From NCBI RefSeq assembly GCF_012516435.1, contig NZ_CP051216.1, positions 3,471,669 through 3,535,668 on the forward strand: DNA of 64,000 nucleotides. The letters are read 5' to 3'. Positions 44,343 through 49,997 of the stretch are shown piece after piece (within the stretch, counting starts at the first letter, position 1; the number at the start of each line of letters is the position of its first letter). The notes under the pieces are model-generated. The model was not told the origin of the DNA. It did no database searches and saw nothing but the letters and a program-made list of their open reading frames with translations. Source of the stretch: Pseudodesulfovibrio sp. zrk46. Its GTDB lineage: Bacteria; Desulfobacterota; Desulfovibrionia; Desulfovibrionales; Desulfovibrionaceae. The translations under genes and the position numbers were made by a program.

Positions 44343-45002
44343 TTATAGAATAGCAGCCTTAACTGCGTCAATGCCAACCTTTTTAAGAAGCAGTGAAGAC
44401 CGGCTTCGCTTGGCTGAATTATCCTTATAATATTCCATAAACCGACCGACAAGTTCAATGGCTTCGGCTCGAGACAAGTCTTCGGCCAGTACGTCCGCAA
44501 TGCGCGGCTTACCCGAAGCATTACCGCCCACAACCATGGTCCACCCTTTCTTCTTGCCGATGAGACCAATATCACGCACATAACTTTCTGCGCAACACAT
44601 GGGACAACCAGACACTCCCACTTTGAGTTTGGCTGGCAGTTCTTTGCCCACAAACATTTCTTCAAGTTCTAAACCAAACCCAAGAGAATCACGCACACCG
44701 AATTTACAAACTTCAGTACCTGGACAGGCCTGAACATAGTGAACACACAAACCGACAGCCGGACCGATGTCCATCTTAAGATCCTCCCAAACAGCGTCGA
44801 CCTGCTCTTCTTCTAAGCCGACAAGAGCAATACGCTGACCGGAAGTAATCTTCATAATTGGTACTTCAAATTTTCTGCCGACACGGGCCAGAGCTTCGAG
44901 AACGTCAGGATTCACCAACCCCACAGGTGTACGAGGGACAATGGCGTAGGTCTTTTTGTCACGCTGAAGAATCGCTCCCTTGGGAGAACCTTTCTCACTC
45001 AT
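44343..45002 (-). CDS. Low-molecular-weight assimilatory-type sulfite reductase, copy 1
   Basis: A small siroheme-[4Fe-4S] reductase of 219 residues, the size of the known Desulfovibrio vulgaris assimilatory-type enzyme. The cluster ligands are all present: C93-x5-C99 (ACPGTEVC) and C133-x3-C137 (GCPMCC). The N-terminal part (TPVGLVNPDVLEALARVG, ITSGQRIAL) is the siroheme half-domain. It would reduce sulfite (or nitrite) with six electrons if the partner donor is available. It forms a tandem with a second copy upstream; its physiological role in sulfate reducers is unclear. Confidence 0.88.
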   Translation of the reverse strand: MSEKGSPKGAILQRDKKTYAIVPRTPVGLVNPDVLEALARVGRKFEVPIMKITSGQRIALVGLEEEQVDAVWEDLKMDIGPAVGLCVHYVQACPGTEVCKFGVRDSLGFGLELEEMFVGKELPAKLKVGVSGCPMCCAESYVRDIGLIGKKKGWTMVVGGNASGKPRIADVLAEDLSRAEAIELVGRFMEYYKDNSAKRSRSSLLLKKVGIDAVKAAIL

Positions 45003-45029
45003 TTCAGAAACTCCTATAAGAGAAGATAA

Positions 45030-45695
45030 TTACGAGCCATGTATGGCTTCCAATACCGCATCGAAGCCGACACGCTCGACAAATCGCGCAGTGCGTTCTT
45101 TCTTTTTGGCGTTTTCACGGTAAAAATCAAGTGCTTTACCGATGACAGCAAAGGCCTCTTCTTCGTTCAAACCTTCACCCAGCACGTCAGCCTTGCGCAC
45201 GGTCTTGCCGGCGTTGCCGCCAAAGACCACGGTCCACCCTTTCTTAGTGCCAACCAACCCAATATCCCGAACAAAGGGCTCAGCACAGCACATGGAGCAT
45301 CCAGCAACACCGGACTTTAACTTTGCAGGCAGATCAAAAGTGTTAAGAAAATCCCTTAGCTTAGCAGCAAAGGCAAAAGAATCCTGCATACCTAATCGAC
45401 ACGCCCGGGTGCCAGGACATGCCTGCACAAAGTATTTACAAGTATCCCCGATATTACCAAGACGCTCAACCACGTCCTGTAAATGATTCACCGGGATATC
45501 GAGCAACTGGATGCTCTGCTTGCCAGTCACCCGGATGCCGGGCAGACCAAACTCCTTTACCACACCGTTAATGACGTCCAATTGCTCGGCAGAAACATCG
45601 CCCAACTTTGTCCGGGCTATAAGAGAATAACGCCCTTTACCACAAGGACGGCAGGCCCCCTCGGGCAATGTTTTGATATATTCTTCTATTTCCAT
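45030..45695 (-). CDS. Low-molecular-weight assimilatory-type sulfite reductase, copy 2
   Basis: A second siroheme-[4Fe-4S] protein, 221 residues, with the four ligands C93, C99, C133 and C137 at exactly the same numbers as in copy 1 when ATG 45695 is used, which supports that start. It carries an extra pair in its N-terminus (EGACRPCGKG, C15 and C18) that copy 1 lacks. The frame is open upstream to 45758, but the start there would add a hydrophobic lead without signal. The two copies differ clearly in sequence, so they are old paralogs and not a recent duplication. Confidence 0.85.
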   Translation of the reverse strand: MEIEEYIKTLPEGACRPCGKGRYSLIARTKLGDVSAEQLDVINGVVKEFGLPGIRVTGKQSIQLLDIPVNHLQDVVERLGNIGDTCKYFVQACPGTRACRLGMQDSFAFAAKLRDFLNTFDLPAKLKSGVAGCSMCCAEPFVRDIGLVGTKKGWTVVFGGNAGKTVRKADVLGEGLNEEEAFAVIGKALDFYRENAKKKERTARFVERVGFDAVLEAIHGS

Positions 45696-45735
45696 TGGCA
45701 TCTCTTGGTACATTTTGATTGAGTAAAGTAAAAAT

Positions 45736-45775
45736 CCAATCCCGACGCACGGTTTCATACCACGCGCGGGATTGG
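45736..45775 (-). terminator. Hairpin, likely terminator, between cupin and sulfite reductase genes
   Basis: CCAATCCCG and CGGGATTGG (9 bp) enclose a partly paired GC-rich segment, and on the minus strand TTTTTACTTT follows. It may partly separate the ferredoxin-cupin genes from the reductase genes. Confidence 0.65.
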
Positions 45776-45814
45776 AATAATAGCTTCAAGTAAGCAGGTT
45801 TATTATCCATCGAT

Positions 45815-46132
45815 TTAAATCGGAGGAGCAATAGTGACCAGCACACGCATGTCGGTGATGGCCTTGACTCCGTGCGGTTCCGCAATCTCGGACACCAATA
45901 CATCACCGATATGGGCAGGCATGGACACACCATCTGCGCCGAGGAATTCGCCCTCACCTTCCAGGATAGTCAAGGTCAGCTCCCCTTCCAAATCATGGGA
46001 GTGAACTGGCAGTTGCTGTCCTGCCTTGAAGTTGAAGTTGATCACCTTCATGAACTCCGATTCATGAACCAAATAGTTGGAAAAGGTCAAATCCTTGAAA
46101 CCATGTTCTTCAAACAGTTCTATCTTCTTCAT
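45815..46132 (-). CDS. Cupin-domain protein
   Basis: A 105-residue single-domain cupin: VHSHDLEGELTLTILEGEGEF (metal-binding histidines and a glutamate) and EPHGVKAI as the second motif. Such proteins bind metal and small molecules; which one is unknown. AAGGAGG precedes ATG 46132. It is in the same direction as and 15 bases after the ferredoxin, and appears part of the redox cluster. Confidence 0.82.
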   Translation of the reverse strand: MKKIELFEEHGFKDLTFSNYLVHESEFMKVINFNFKAGQQLPVHSHDLEGELTLTILEGEGEFLGADGVSMPAHIGDVLVSEIAEPHGVKAITDMRVLVTIAPPI

Positions 46133-46147
46133 GTCCAGCCTCCTTGG

Positions 46148-46936
46148 CTAGAAATTCAGCGGAACCATCTCTAGGACGCCGCCAGTACGGGAAATTGTCA
46201 CACGGGTGGTTGAAGGAGCCTTTCCTGCACGCTTCACAGCTTCACCGAGAATAGTACTCATAGAAGAGCAGCACGGCACTTCCATTTCCAGCACAGTGAT
46301 AGACTTTAAGTCATTCTCACCGATGATTGCAGCCAACTTCTCAACGTACTCCATCTGGTTGTCGAACTTGGGGCACCCCATCAAGACCACACGGCCAGCC
46401 AGGAACTTGGAGTGGTAATCAGGACAGGCAACAGGCACACAGTCAGCAGTCAGCAGCAGATCAGCCTCTTTAAGGAACGGTGCTGCCGGAGGCACAAGGC
46501 GCAGCTGTACAGGCCAGTGACTCAGAGCTGAACCGGCTGCCGGAGCCTGTGCTGCAGGGATATTAGCCTGACCACAGGGACTCAAGGACTGCACGGCTGA
46601 GCCGGGGCAACCGCCCATAGGCTTAGGGCCGCCCGCAGGCTTATCCAGACGCAAGCTCTCGGGGCTAGGCATGTGATCGGGGACCGCACGGCCCTGCGAC
46701 TTCAGGTGTTCGGCAACAGCTTCGGGGTCAAAATCCTCTGCATCGCGGACTTCCACCTTGAGCGCACCAGTAGGGCAATCTCCCAGACATGCGCCCAGAC
46801 CGTCACAATAGATTTCCTTCACGAGCTTTGCCTTGCCATCCACAATGGCCAGAGCGCCTTCCTCACAAGAGGGAACGCATTCACCGCAACCGTTACACAA
46901 ATCTTCGTCGATGGTGATCATTTTTCTCAGAGCCAT
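46148..46936 (-). CDS. Ferredoxin-type redox protein with C-terminal cysteine-rich domain
   Basis: A 262-residue protein. The N-terminal ferredoxin part has one full cluster motif (C14, C17, C20, C24) and a second one, C44-x5-C50-x3-C54 in YCDGLGACLGDCP, where the second cysteine is replaced by Leu; the CDGLGAC form occurs in related proteins. A Pro/Gly/Cys-rich linker leads to a C-terminal domain with ADCVPVACPDYH, MGCPKFDN and VPCCSSM. Such ferredoxins often accompany hybrid cluster protein or nitrogen-stress genes. The C-terminal cysteines may hold a further cofactor. Confidence 0.8.
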   Translation of the reverse strand: MALRKMITIDEDLCNGCGECVPSCEEGALAIVDGKAKLVKEIYCDGLGACLGDCPTGALKVEVRDAEDFDPEAVAEHLKSQGRAVPDHMPSPESLRLDKPAGGPKPMGGCPGSAVQSLSPCGQANIPAAQAPAAGSALSHWPVQLRLVPPAAPFLKEADLLLTADCVPVACPDYHSKFLAGRVVLMGCPKFDNQMEYVEKLAAIIGENDLKSITVLEMEVPCCSSMSTILGEAVKRAGKAPSTTRVTISRTGGVLEMVPLNF

Positions 46937-46969
46937 AATGTATACCTCTCTCTGGTTTTCTCAATAAAA

Positions 46970-48286
46970 TTATATTCGTGCCACACCAAGGAAAATAGCG
47001 TGGAGACTCACAACAATTACAATGAACAAAGTTCGGGCATTTTCAGCAGAAAGGCCGGGGAGACGATAGCTGATCTGCTTATGCACACACGCGGACACAC
47101 AATCGCCACACATGGTGCAAGAGATGGCGGGCTTACCCAGTTTCACCCTGCTTTCGTCCAACGCGTTGTAGCGACACCTAGTGAAGCATGCTCCGCACTT
47201 AGTACAGTCGCTGCCCACACGAATTCGCCACGGAGAAATCTTGCCAAACACGTTTGCGACCAACCCCATAGGGCAGAAGGCCGTACAGTGGGTCATCATG
47301 CCCGCCTTGCGGGAGATGAAGACCATTATACCGACGCCAATCAATCCGAACACAGCAGCGTAGCTCACTGCGGTCACGCCCGGAATGCCCATGGACCGCA
47401 TCTGTAATGCGGCACCGATACATAGAATCAGCGTGATCATACGACTTGCCACACTCAACCGGCTGAGCAGCGCATTATGAGCTGGGCGCGGCCCCAAACG
47501 ACTCATGACATCATCCCATGCTCCAATGTAGCACAGATGACTGCACCATGCAGGTCCTACCAGTAACAAAGTTACGGAGAAGAGGATGATCATAAAGAAG
47601 CCCTCTCCCCGAAAAACCGGACCGGCAGCGATAAGCGCAGGTACAGGCAAGTGGAGGTTACCGGTCATAAGCATCTCGTTCATGCCCATCAAGCCCAATG
47701 CCAACTGCCCAAAAAAAACTGCGGAGAACATTGCCCAGAGACGAGGACGGCAGACTCGGTGTCCCTTAGGGGGCAACATCTTGCCGCCGATCCACTGTGC
47801 ATAGAAGCCAAGGAGCATGATTTCCAACCAGCCCCAGCCAGGAAAATATCTGTCCGCCAACAAGATGGGGAACGAAACCTTAGACCGGGCCACGGTGAGA
47901 CCAAACACCACCAATATGAACATGACAGCTCGGGTTGTCGCTTGTATTTCATTCCTGTCAAAGAACTCACGGCAGGTTTGGCCGAGCAGAGCCCAAATCG
48001 CCAAGGCATCAAAAACGATAAGTCCGCCCATTATGTACGCCAGACGCTTCCAAGGCATATCCAAAGCCTGCCTGAAACGAATAAACTCCACGGTTGTATC
48101 AGCCCATATACATCCGCCCCACAACAATGTCGCTATGAGGATCAACCTGACCCAAGCCTGGCGGGTGAATATCAATCCGATCATGAGCGCGAAGGCTGCA
48201 GTCAGTCCGAAGTCGCCTTGCCGAAGAGCATGCGCTCCCAAAAGCAACAACGCGAAGATGGGTATAGCCAGAATGGATCGCTTCAT
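46970..48286 (-). CDS. Membrane polyferredoxin (NapH/NosR/CcoG-like)
   Basis: A 438-residue inner-membrane protein with about eight to ten hydrophobic segments, a CxxxC pair in the membrane region (WCSHLCYIGAWD) and two cytoplasmic ferredoxin motifs near the C-terminus (CTKCGACFTRC and CTMCGDCVSAC), plus another HCTAFCPMG motif. This layout suits electron transfer from the quinone pool to soluble partners, such as the ferredoxin and reductases downstream. It is first in the operon, 33 bases before the ferredoxin gene. Confidence 0.83.
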   Translation of the reverse strand: MKRSILAIPIFALLLLGAHALRQGDFGLTAAFALMIGLIFTRQAWVRLILIATLLWGGCIWADTTVEFIRFRQALDMPWKRLAYIMGGLIVFDALAIWALLGQTCREFFDRNEIQATTRAVMFILVVFGLTVARSKVSFPILLADRYFPGWGWLEIMLLGFYAQWIGGKMLPPKGHRVCRPRLWAMFSAVFFGQLALGLMGMNEMLMTGNLHLPVPALIAAGPVFRGEGFFMIILFSVTLLLVGPAWCSHLCYIGAWDDVMSRLGPRPAHNALLSRLSVASRMITLILCIGAALQMRSMGIPGVTAVSYAAVFGLIGVGIMVFISRKAGMMTHCTAFCPMGLVANVFGKISPWRIRVGSDCTKCGACFTRCRYNALDESRVKLGKPAISCTMCGDCVSACVHKQISYRLPGLSAENARTLFIVIVVSLHAIFLGVARI

Positions 48287-48335
48287 TTCTCGTTTCCTTC
48301 GCCCTCAATATGGAGATTTTTTTTGACGGGAACCA

Positions 48336-48347
48336 TGACTTAGGTCA
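48336..48347 (+). promoter_or_regulatory. Candidate Crp/Fnr-type operator in the divergent region
   Basis: TGAC-TTAG-GTCA, a palindromic half-site pair with four bases between, 50 bases from each start codon. Its position and form fit a site for the adjacent Crp/Fnr protein acting on both directions. A partial repeat TTGACGGGAA precedes it. Confidence 0.42.
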
Positions 48348-48389
48348 ACTTATGCAAATCACATCACAAAATCAGGAGACTTTTTTGAA

Positions 48390-49064
48390 ATGGACAAACT
48401 GGACGCCGTTAAATCCGTAATGTTTTTCGAGGGTTTGCCTCAAGAGAAATTCAACAAGCTTGCAGAAATATCCATTATAAAAAAGTATGACAAGGGACAG
48501 ATTCTTTTTGAAGCAGATGTCCCCGCAAATGGTTTTTTTGCTCCTATAAAAGGACGCGTGAAAATTTTCCGAACATCTCCTTCTGGCAAAGAGCAAATTC
48601 TACACGTCTTTGGTCCAGGTGAAGCCTTTGGTGAGGTTCCTGTGTTTGAAGGAGGCACCTTCCCTGCCCACGGTCAGGCCATCGAGAAATGTGAAGCCCT
48701 GTTCTTCCCTCGCAGAGAATTTGAGAACATGATCAAAGAAGACCCAGATCTCGCCATGAAAATGATGGCAATGCTTGCCCAGAAGCTTAGAATTCTTGTA
48801 AATAAGATTGATGACCTCAGCCTCAAAGAGGCTCCCTCTAGAGTGGCCTCTTATTTACTCTTACTCCGCTCTTCACAAGAATCTGATACTTTCAAACTAG
48901 ATCTCCCCAAAGGCCAAATAGCCTTCTACCTCGGAACTATTCAGGAAACCCTTTCACGTATATTTAAAAAATTCAGCGAACAAGAAATTATTGAAATCAA
49001 CGGCAAAGAAATCACGATCTTGAACATGGCTGAATTAGAAGAGATCGCCAATGAAGGCCGCTAA
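48390..49064 (+). CDS. Crp/Fnr-family transcriptional regulator (HcpR-like)
   Basis: A 224-residue regulator: N-terminal cyclic-nucleotide-binding fold (about 10-120, with GGTFPAHGQAIEKCEALFF) and C-terminal helix-turn-helix (KGQIAFYLGTIQETLSRIF, about 175-195). No N-terminal Fnr-type cysteine cluster is visible, and the cAMP-binding residues are not all kept, so it may bind heme or another ligand as HcpR does. HcpR of this group controls hybrid cluster protein and ferredoxin genes in nitrosative stress; the divergent redox operon is the obvious target. GGAG precedes ATG 48390. Confidence 0.82.
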   Translation: MDKLDAVKSVMFFEGLPQEKFNKLAEISIIKKYDKGQILFEADVPANGFFAPIKGRVKIFRTSPSGKEQILHVFGPGEAFGEVPVFEGGTFPAHGQAIEKCEALFFPRREFENMIKEDPDLAMKMMAMLAQKLRILVNKIDDLSLKEAPSRVASYLLLLRSSQESDTFKLDLPKGQIAFYLGTIQETLSRIFKKFSEQEIIEINGKEITILNMAELEEIANEGR

Positions 49065-49145: not shown

Positions 49146-49997
49146 CTAGTGATCATATTGTTTGGCGTACTCGGCATCGTTATACATACCTTCACCATAC
49201 AAATCTTTTCCATAATTTTCGATGATTGCTTGACCATCTTTCGATCCGAGGAAGTTAATAAACTTCATAGCAAGTTCATGATTCGGCGCCCCATTAGGCA
49301 TAGCGAGAGCGTGGTATGTATTGATGAGGAACGGATCTCCACGAAACAACACTTTCAGATTACCCATCTCTTTCTTACCGGCAACCCAAGTGCTGCTATC
49401 GGTCATAAAATAACCATTTATTTCATTCGCTTGCTTCAAAGTAGCCATCATAAATGCCTTGGTGATGATATACCAATCACCTGAAGGTATGATGCCAGCC
49501 TTACCCCAAATAGCAAGTTCCTTCTTATTGGTTCCAGAATTATCACCACGAGACATAAAAGGATGCTTAGCTTTGGCAATACGGGCATAGGCATCAGCAG
49601 CAGTCTTGGCCTTGGAGATGCCTGCGGGATCATTCTTAGGACCAACAATATAAAATTCATTTGAACCAATCAAAGTTCGTCCAACAGCCCAACCATCTTT
49701 CACAGCCAGCTTCTCTGCGGCAGGAGCATGCACCATACAAGCATCAACCTGCCCAGCTTTGAGAAGTTTGAGAGATTTACCTGATCCGGCCTTCACCCAA
49801 CACATGGTGGTCCCATGCTTGGCGTTAAAGGCTTCAGCCAAGACTTTCAGTAGGCCAAGTTCTCCGGGGCTGCCTGTGGCCACCTTGTAAACAACTTTGC
49901 CGTCGCCATAAGATGACTTACACGTCACATCGCTGGCATTCGCCATTGCTACCATCAACAACAACATAAGAGAGATCAAAGCCAAATGTTTCATCAT
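49146..49997 (-). CDS. tupA: TupA-like tungstate/molybdate ABC transporter substrate-binding protein
   Basis: A 283-residue periplasmic protein with an N-terminal signal peptide (LMLLLMVAMANA). The TupA/PstS-like features are VATGSPGELGLLKVLAEAF, VDACMVHAPAAEKL, DPAGI and SRGDNSGTNKKELAIW. Tungstate and molybdate are needed for formate dehydrogenases and aldehyde oxidoreductases of sulfate reducers. No permease or ATPase gene is next to it, so these are elsewhere. ATG 49994 is an equally possible start (GGAG seven bases before). Confidence 0.8.
   Translation of the reverse strand: MMKHLALISLMLLLMVAMANASDVTCKSSYGDGKVVYKVATGSPGELGLLKVLAEAFNAKHGTTMCWVKAGSGKSLKLLKAGQVDACMVHAPAAEKLAVKDGWAVGRTLIGSNEFYIVGPKNDPAGISKAKTAADAYARIAKAKHPFMSRGDNSGTNKKELAIWGKAGIIPSGDWYIITKAFMMATLKQANEINGYFMTDSSTWVAGKKEMGNLKVLFRGDPFLINTYHALAMPNGAPNHELAMKFINFLGSKDGQAIIENYGKDLYGEGMYNDAEYAKQYDH

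Follow-up and report, generated by a model that had tools for sequence, protein, structure and literature searches.

Predicted HcpR control of a locus with tandem small siroheme reductases, and without hcp, in Pseudodesulfovibrio

What do two small siroheme reductases do behind genes for a membrane polyferredoxin, a ferredoxin and a cupin, all facing a Crp/Fnr regulator? The question is raised by a locus of Pseudodesulfovibrio sp. zrk46, whose genome is one contig of 4.08 Mb (NZ_CP051216.1). We analysed 64,000 nucleotides of it (positions 3,471,669 to 3,535,668, forward strand), here called the window; coordinates are those of the window unless a fetched locus (L-numbers) or the genome is named, and G-numbers denote genomes. 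Five minus-strand genes diverge from a plus-strand regulator gene, and open reading frames (ORFs) together with Pfam matches confirmed the gene content, as polyferredoxin, ferredoxin, cupin and two reductases opposite a Crp/Fnr protein, that a preliminary description had given. The elements are as follows.

44343..45002, minus strand: SiR-B, 219 amino acids, a single-repeat siroheme-[4Fe-4S] reductase of the alSiR / group I Dsr-LP / NirB-C-like type
45030-45758, minus strand: ORF of SiR-A, likely ATG start at 45695, 221 amino acids, a paralog of SiR-B
45730..45775, minus strand: terminator-like hairpin between cupin and SiR-A
45815..46132, minus strand: cupin, 105 amino acids, Pfam Cupin_2
46148..46936, minus strand: FrdX-type ferredoxin, 262 amino acids, Pfam Fer4
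46970..48286, minus strand: NapH-like membrane polyferredoxin, 438 amino acids, Pfam Fer4_5
48335..48348, minus strand: predicted HcpR operator TTGACCTAAGTCAT, lying 62 bp upstream of the polyferredoxin gene
48390..49064, plus strand: HcpR ortholog of the Crp/Fnr family, Pfam cNMP_binding and HTH_Crp_2, recognition helix GTIQETLSR

We consider it fairly probable that this is an hcp-less nitrosative-stress locus, in which an operon raised by HcpR would supply siroheme enzymes with electrons for reactions with nitrogen oxides. Gene content, orthology, order, the operator and its sharing with hcp were read from the sequence itself.

In 16 loci fetched from other genera, orthologs of the regulator (40-54% identical) stand together with hcp and frdX, and the recognition helix ETLSR is present in all 27 regulator rows that hold the helix (of 29 rows). 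Because the orthologs flank hcp-frdX in other genera and the helix is uniform, we take this protein to be the local HcpR; its top solved-structure match is DNR (1.9e-27). The predicted operator TTGACCTAAGTCAT has 9 of the 10 letters of TTGAC-N4-GTCAA (the last letter is T), in agreement with the FNR-like HcpR motif wyTTGACnnnnGTCAArw reported for some delta-proteobacteria (PMC1274295). All 14 letters are identical in 9 of 10 loci of the genus set (the zrk46 genome plus nine from a family draw of 149); in the remaining one, L046, the site has diverged. The HcpR-like control proposed earlier is thus well supported, as a prediction, by regulator orthology, recognition helix and conserved operator.

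Is the operator shared with hcp? We scored upstream sites against TTGAC-N4-GTCAA, counted those that match at 9 or 10 of its 10 letters, and took expectations from single-letter shuffles. Such a site stands before 30 of 31 hcp genes (0.3 expected; the 31st begins at the edge of its locus), 14 of 31 polyferredoxin genes (0.2 expected), 8 of 15 genes for DsrLP, a ferredoxin-fused sulfite-reductase-like protein (0.2 expected), 14 of 51 ferredoxin genes (0.4 expected) and 11 of 78 SiR-B genes (0.5 expected), including stand-alone SiR-B of other genera. No operator-type site lies directly upstream of any of 11 SiR-A genes or of 13 genes for SiR-C, the third small siroheme protein encoded by the zrk46 genome. 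Two loci were fetched in duplicate (L098 = L143, L101 = L138), which puts two doubles into each of the row counts for ferredoxin, cupin and SiR-B, here and in the residue comparisons below. In the genus, hcp lies outside this locus and has an operator-type site in 10 of 10 genomes, and hcp has one in 4 of the six non-genus genomes whose FrdX locus lacks hcp.

Across the whole zrk46 genome, a scan allowing up to 2 mismatches returned 28 matches against 34 in the control, with no enrichment, so that the weight falls on the best sites only. The notable ones lie at this operon, at hcp, in an interval flanked by genes for a NapH-like polyferredoxin and an SBP_bac_3 protein, and at a perfect palindrome. 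The site in the interval, TTGACGTAAGTCAT, is a candidate HcpR target (L159:465-2396, about 0.706 Mb; the polyferredoxin is the second of its type). The palindrome, formed by perfect TTGACCTAAGTCAA half-sites at L157:1501-1514 (genome position C1:1809680), lies between an RsmG-like ORF and a hypothetical ORF of 371 amino acids, and has no clear target.

The gene order is constant within the genus. Regulator, polyferredoxin, ferredoxin, cupin and SiR-A follow one another in 10 of 10 genomes, with TrkA and TrkH beyond; SiR-B comes after SiR-A in six. Of the other four genomes, one has a SiR-B-like gene at another place and three yielded none. A SiR gene lies within 4 kb of FrdX in all ten genus genomes versus 7 of 114 others, whereas hcp lies within that distance in none of the ten versus at least 49 of 114. 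These counts cover 124 of 125 tallied genomes with one FrdX match per genome, and the 49 is a lower bound because a second, lower-scoring FrdX near hcp in G008 and G136 was uncounted. Outside the genus, mutual exclusion of hcp and SiR beside FrdX was not significant (SiR in 1 of 49 versus 6 of 65, p 0.24).

Orthologous loci of other genera encode, with varying completeness, regulator, DsrLP, polyferredoxin, hcp, ferredoxin and cupin. Conservation of gene order, named earlier as a check, thus holds within the genus and gives way to variable order outside it. In five loci (L056, L079, L100, L111, L115) a polyferredoxin-cupin-SiR run stands without FrdX or hcp and with a site before each polyferredoxin gene; in four of the five an hcp-FrdX pair lies 7-11 kb away. 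Such separate runs with an operator support a functional unit. In L093 and L096, both of one other genus, the cupin gene is likewise followed by a SiR-B ortholog and, about 2.4 kb beyond it, by TrkA/TrkH. The zrk46 locus has the HcpR ortholog, the operator and frdX of hcp-frdX loci, while hcp is missing from it (0 of 10 genus loci), and we therefore read it as an hcp-less form of the hcp-frdX nitrosative-stress locus. It has apparently been rearranged from the hcp-frdX form, a direction of change that we infer. When the class was searched with the SiR alignment, 141 of 297 genomes gave a match, and 34 of the 141 belong to this genus; the contig search returned three relatives, the closest named record found being a Humidesulfovibrio metagenome-assembled genome with a SiR-A 44% identical.

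How does this compare with known HcpR regulons? Genes for a "putative sulfite/nitrite reductase, polyferredoxin" were predicted in 2004 in the HcpR regulon of Desulfovibrio vulgaris and D. desulfuricans G20 (PMC545781). The HcpR / hcp-frdX regulon of delta-proteobacteria has the same type of regulator, frdX and a polyferredoxin (PMC545781, PMC1274295), and the operator here is FNR-like as in Desulfuromonas, Desulfotalea and Geobacter (PMC1274295), whereas the 2004 Desulfovibrio motif is CRP-like (TTGTGA-N6-TCACAA; PMC545781). Unlike in that regulon, hcp lies outside the locus here and two single-repeat siroheme reductases lie inside. In the other genera sampled the reductase-like gene before the polyferredoxin is DsrLP, which may be the gene of the 2004 prediction; as judged by eye, DsrLP of L126:1034-1678 and its orthologs, a shortened protein placed between HcpR and polyferredoxin, keeps CX3C and seemingly lacks the first CX5C. 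We found no description of the hcp-less form with tandem small reductases in the literature searched, which omitted most subscription journals.

What kind of enzymes are the two reductases? Both match Pfam NIR_SIR (1.1e-23 and 3.9e-27) and NIR_SIR_ferr, and the top NCBIfam profile for both is NirB (SiR-B 2.3e-52, SiR-A 2.5e-39), whose siroheme domain aligns along their full length. At 178.5 and 135.4 bits they miss the NirB cut-off of 578 bits; they differ from NirB in having no FAD/NADH part, and no NirD was found beside them. As single-repeat small siroheme-[4Fe-4S] proteins without a peripheral ferredoxin domain, they fall in the group I Dsr-LP / alSiR type. They resemble DVU1597 and group I Dsr-LP, as these are described, in size, in having one NIR_SIR_ferr half domain with NIR_SIR, in the coupled siroheme-[4Fe-4S] ligands and in having no extra ferredoxin domain (PMC3448663). 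Unlike DVU1597 as reported there, they stand in tandem and inside an HcpR-type operon.

The complete cluster ligands noted in the preliminary description were borne out: the four cluster Cys (CX5C...CX3C) do not vary among 59 aligned relatives, a Lys pair ahead of the second Cys motif is nearly invariant there, and SiR-B retains the pair and all four Cys. A predicted structure of SiR-A (pLDDT 94.7) matches solved sulfite and nitrite reductases, with F420-dependent and other sulfite reductases as best matches; the model is a confirmation of the fold, not of the substrate. The two proteins, earlier called clear paralogs, are 42% identical and look like old paralogs. In a quick tree with Shimodaira-Hasegawa-like approximate likelihood ratio test (SH-aLRT) support, from which 10 SiR rows judged near-copies were omitted, the SiR-B sequences from six genomes of the genus form a clade with reductases linked to the locus in two other genera (SH-aLRT 96), and this clade is placed among widespread, slowly evolving relatives. 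SiR-A falls in a separate, fast-evolving region with long branches, where its exact placement is unsure. The nearest rows are 89% identical to the SiR-B and 67% to the SiR-A of the window. A SiR-B-like gene of L045 (same genus, other site) stands apart from the genus SiR-B, and SiR-A of L046 lies beside SiR-C. On this quick tree only, we rejected a recent tandem duplication of SiR-A and SiR-B. The extra Cys pair described for one copy is present as CRPC near the SiR-A N-terminus, and among 10 genus orthologs only that of this species has the second Cys of the pair. With no counterpart in the other genus rows, the pair was rejected as a functional site.

The polyferredoxin has two CX3C motifs and two 4-Cys ferredoxin motifs, and each of their twelve Cys is present in 97% or more of 31 aligned rows. 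The earlier name stands in the sense of a NapH/MauN-like membrane type, with which it has CX3C(P) motifs and two C-terminal ferredoxin motifs in common; it is not NapH itself (44.3 bits against a cut-off of 213), being longer and having about 9-11 hydrophobic segments in a crude scan. FrdX combines an N-terminal ferredoxin domain, the only part covered by Pfam, with a C-terminal alpha/beta domain. It is 44-84% identical to 47 others and is named for its position beside hcp and HcpR, not from comparison with a named FrdX. Cys 110, 166, 188, 222 and 223, from the linker to the C-terminus, are invariant in the 48 sequences. With its linker, the alpha/beta domain (residues about 140-262) may hold a further metal or cluster site. 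Foldseek gave no match to the FrdX model at E 0.001 or better; VIA-align gave rows mainly over residues 2-94 and one beta-carbonic-anhydrase row (Z 7.2, residues 156-261), an outcome that does not show a new fold. In the cupin, His44, His46 and His87 are likely a metal site; each is found in 97% or more of 37 aligned rows.

HcpR and frdX are required for resistance to nitric oxide (NO) in C. difficile (PMC12915319), and the P. gingivalis HcpR is reported to bind NO at a heme with Met68 as ligand (PMC12750200). In D. desulfuricans 27774, NO induces a cupin gene and hcp, and in the model given for HcpR2 the protein represses until NO lifts the repression (PMC5701242), so that both activation and relief of repression are possible for this operon.

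What we infer concerns the signal, the sense of regulation, the electron path, the substrate and the role of SiR-A. HcpR would sense NO or a related signal and act at TTGACCTAAGTCAT by activation or relief of repression. The polyferredoxin, FrdX and cupin would then be raised, in parallel with hcp elsewhere on the chromosome, and SiR-A and SiR-B would follow by read-through or from a promoter of their own. Electrons from the quinone pool via the polyferredoxin, from cytoplasmic ferredoxin via FrdX, or both, could reach the siroheme-[4Fe-4S] enzymes, whose substrate would be nitrite, hydroxylamine or NO. Ammonia would most likely be the product, as it is for the homologous NirB domain. SiR-B would be the main enzyme and SiR-A a divergent partner, in a hetero-oligomer or with changed specificity. 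A bolder version, which we offer as a tentative possibility, is that the small "assimilatory-type" siroheme reductases of sulfate reducers act in this lineage as quinol/FrdX-driven nitrogen-oxide reductases, making ammonia from NO, hydroxylamine or nitrite. They would have taken the place of Hcp next to the polyferredoxin and FrdX, and SiR-A would form a hetero-oligomer with SiR-B.

HcpR control and the genus-conserved order make nitrosative stress the likeliest setting, and sulfite, named beside it as a stress in the preliminary description, is a less likely substrate, without positive evidence here. It is rather unlikely that the two are alSiR-type sulfite reductases which lower cytoplasmic sulfite, or supply sulfide, when HcpR lowers sulfate reduction under NO stress, so that their place in the locus would serve sulfite and not nitrogen oxides. 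That reading draws on D. vulgaris DVU1597, a small assimilatory-type sulfite reductase of the single-repeat type (PMC3448663), on the predicted repression of sat and apsAB by HcpR in Desulfovibrio (PMC545781), and on the sulfite reductases that best match the SiR-A model, as expected for any member of the fold. However, NirB is the closest profile, the operator is common to hcp and polyferredoxin genes (sulfur genes were covered by the whole-genome scan only), and fold and profile do not discriminate between sulfite and nitrite. This last point cuts both ways: it yields no decision on the substrate, and with the following results it weighs against an operon for nitrogen-oxide reduction. The SiR-A of this species has Ser at the near-invariant Arg of a QR motif. 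Among the 78 SiR-B genes, 67 (in-operon copies and the two doubly fetched loci included) have no site directly upstream, so that the SiR-B family overall is not tied to HcpR. A terminator-like hairpin cuts the reductases off from the genes upstream in this species; it has 18 pairs with one bulge and a loop of 5, followed by AUUUUU. NrfA is encoded in the zrk46 genome and in four more of the ten genus genomes (a weak G104 match uncounted); nitrite reduction to ammonia is thus not missing, and the operon is not a simple NrfA replacement. SiR presence and NrfA absence were not associated over the 149 genomes (p 0.31). Genomes with HcpR-linked SiR carry NrfA less often than other SiR genomes (8 of 22 versus 35 of 54), a weak difference whose p of 0.04 includes no correction for relatedness or testing; the 22 were picked by the analyst from the locus comparison, and the NrfA test omitted weak SiR matches of G006, G063, G076, G084 and G131 (E about 1e-11).

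Could HcpR govern the polyferredoxin, ferredoxin and cupin only, with the reductases transcribed separately and neighbours by genome history? The hairpin and the lack of an HcpR-type site directly before the 11 SiR-A-type genes speak for such a division. The 128-nt stretch holding the hairpin has a minimum energy of -33.2 kcal/mol, equalled in stability by 2 of 200 shuffles; in a consensus scan, which did not list this bulged hairpin, promoter- and terminator-like sites were no commoner than in shuffles. The hairpin makes joint transcription of the five genes uncertain in this species, and the reductases may be expressed less, or separately, owing to it. We nevertheless find two separate units quite improbable: the reductase stays next to the other genes in all 10 genus genomes, and also in three other genera, in six genomes whose locus is hcp-less too, and in L037, L042 and L044 the gap between cupin and SiR-A is about 1-4 nt, with no room for a hairpin.

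The least probable of the alternatives, in our view, makes the operon an electron supply for Hcp in trans, with the siroheme proteins carrying electrons or binding NO as a sink, without turnover. In 48 of 114 non-genus genomes FrdX has hcp, and no reductase, within 4 kb, several hcp-FrdX loci include a polyferredoxin, the operator is retained at hcp, and SiR-A is degenerate at its Arg. Yet SiR-B and nearly the whole family keep the Lys pair and the four cluster Cys, and polyferredoxin-cupin-SiR runs are found apart from FrdX and hcp. Returning to reduction of nitrogen oxides as the preferred reading, a gene set that among relatives often includes Hcp, a protein that detoxifies NO, has the reductases in its stead under the same predicted switch, which suggests that these little-understood enzymes help to remove toxic nitrogen oxides. 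Operator and gene order tie single-repeat siroheme reductases, which have been described as sulfite reductases, to a predicted NO-response regulon and give them named partners in the polyferredoxin, FrdX and cupin, so that substrate and electron donor become directly testable. For sulfate reducers exposed to nitrite, this could be an added detoxification route.

Other siroheme genes and neighbours were also recorded. Two adjoining NIR_SIR genes at 2.06 Mb of the zrk46 genome were taken as putative dsrAB. SiR-C (L004:2651-7344, about 3.107-3.111 Mb) is divergent from genes for a Crp/Fnr protein, CooS and a CooC-like ATPase, and no match to these neighbours was found in the SiR-C loci of three other genus genomes (L047-L049). 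A placement of SiR-C beside hcp was rejected, as the Prismane match in L004 is the CO dehydrogenase CooS (NCBIfam 690 bits, cut-off 478). When the neighbours of stand-alone SiR genes were clustered, no partner proved to be shared by most genera. By eye, a gene resembling a chemotaxis receptor lies near stand-alone SiR-B genes in five genera (L050-L054, L081 and relatives), and in three genera another cupin gene lies directly upstream (Cupin_2 in L081). Just past the HcpR gene, a minus-strand gene at 49146-49997 encodes a TupA-like solute-binding protein (132 bits against a cut-off of 400), and such a gene likewise neighbours the locus in L037 and L038.

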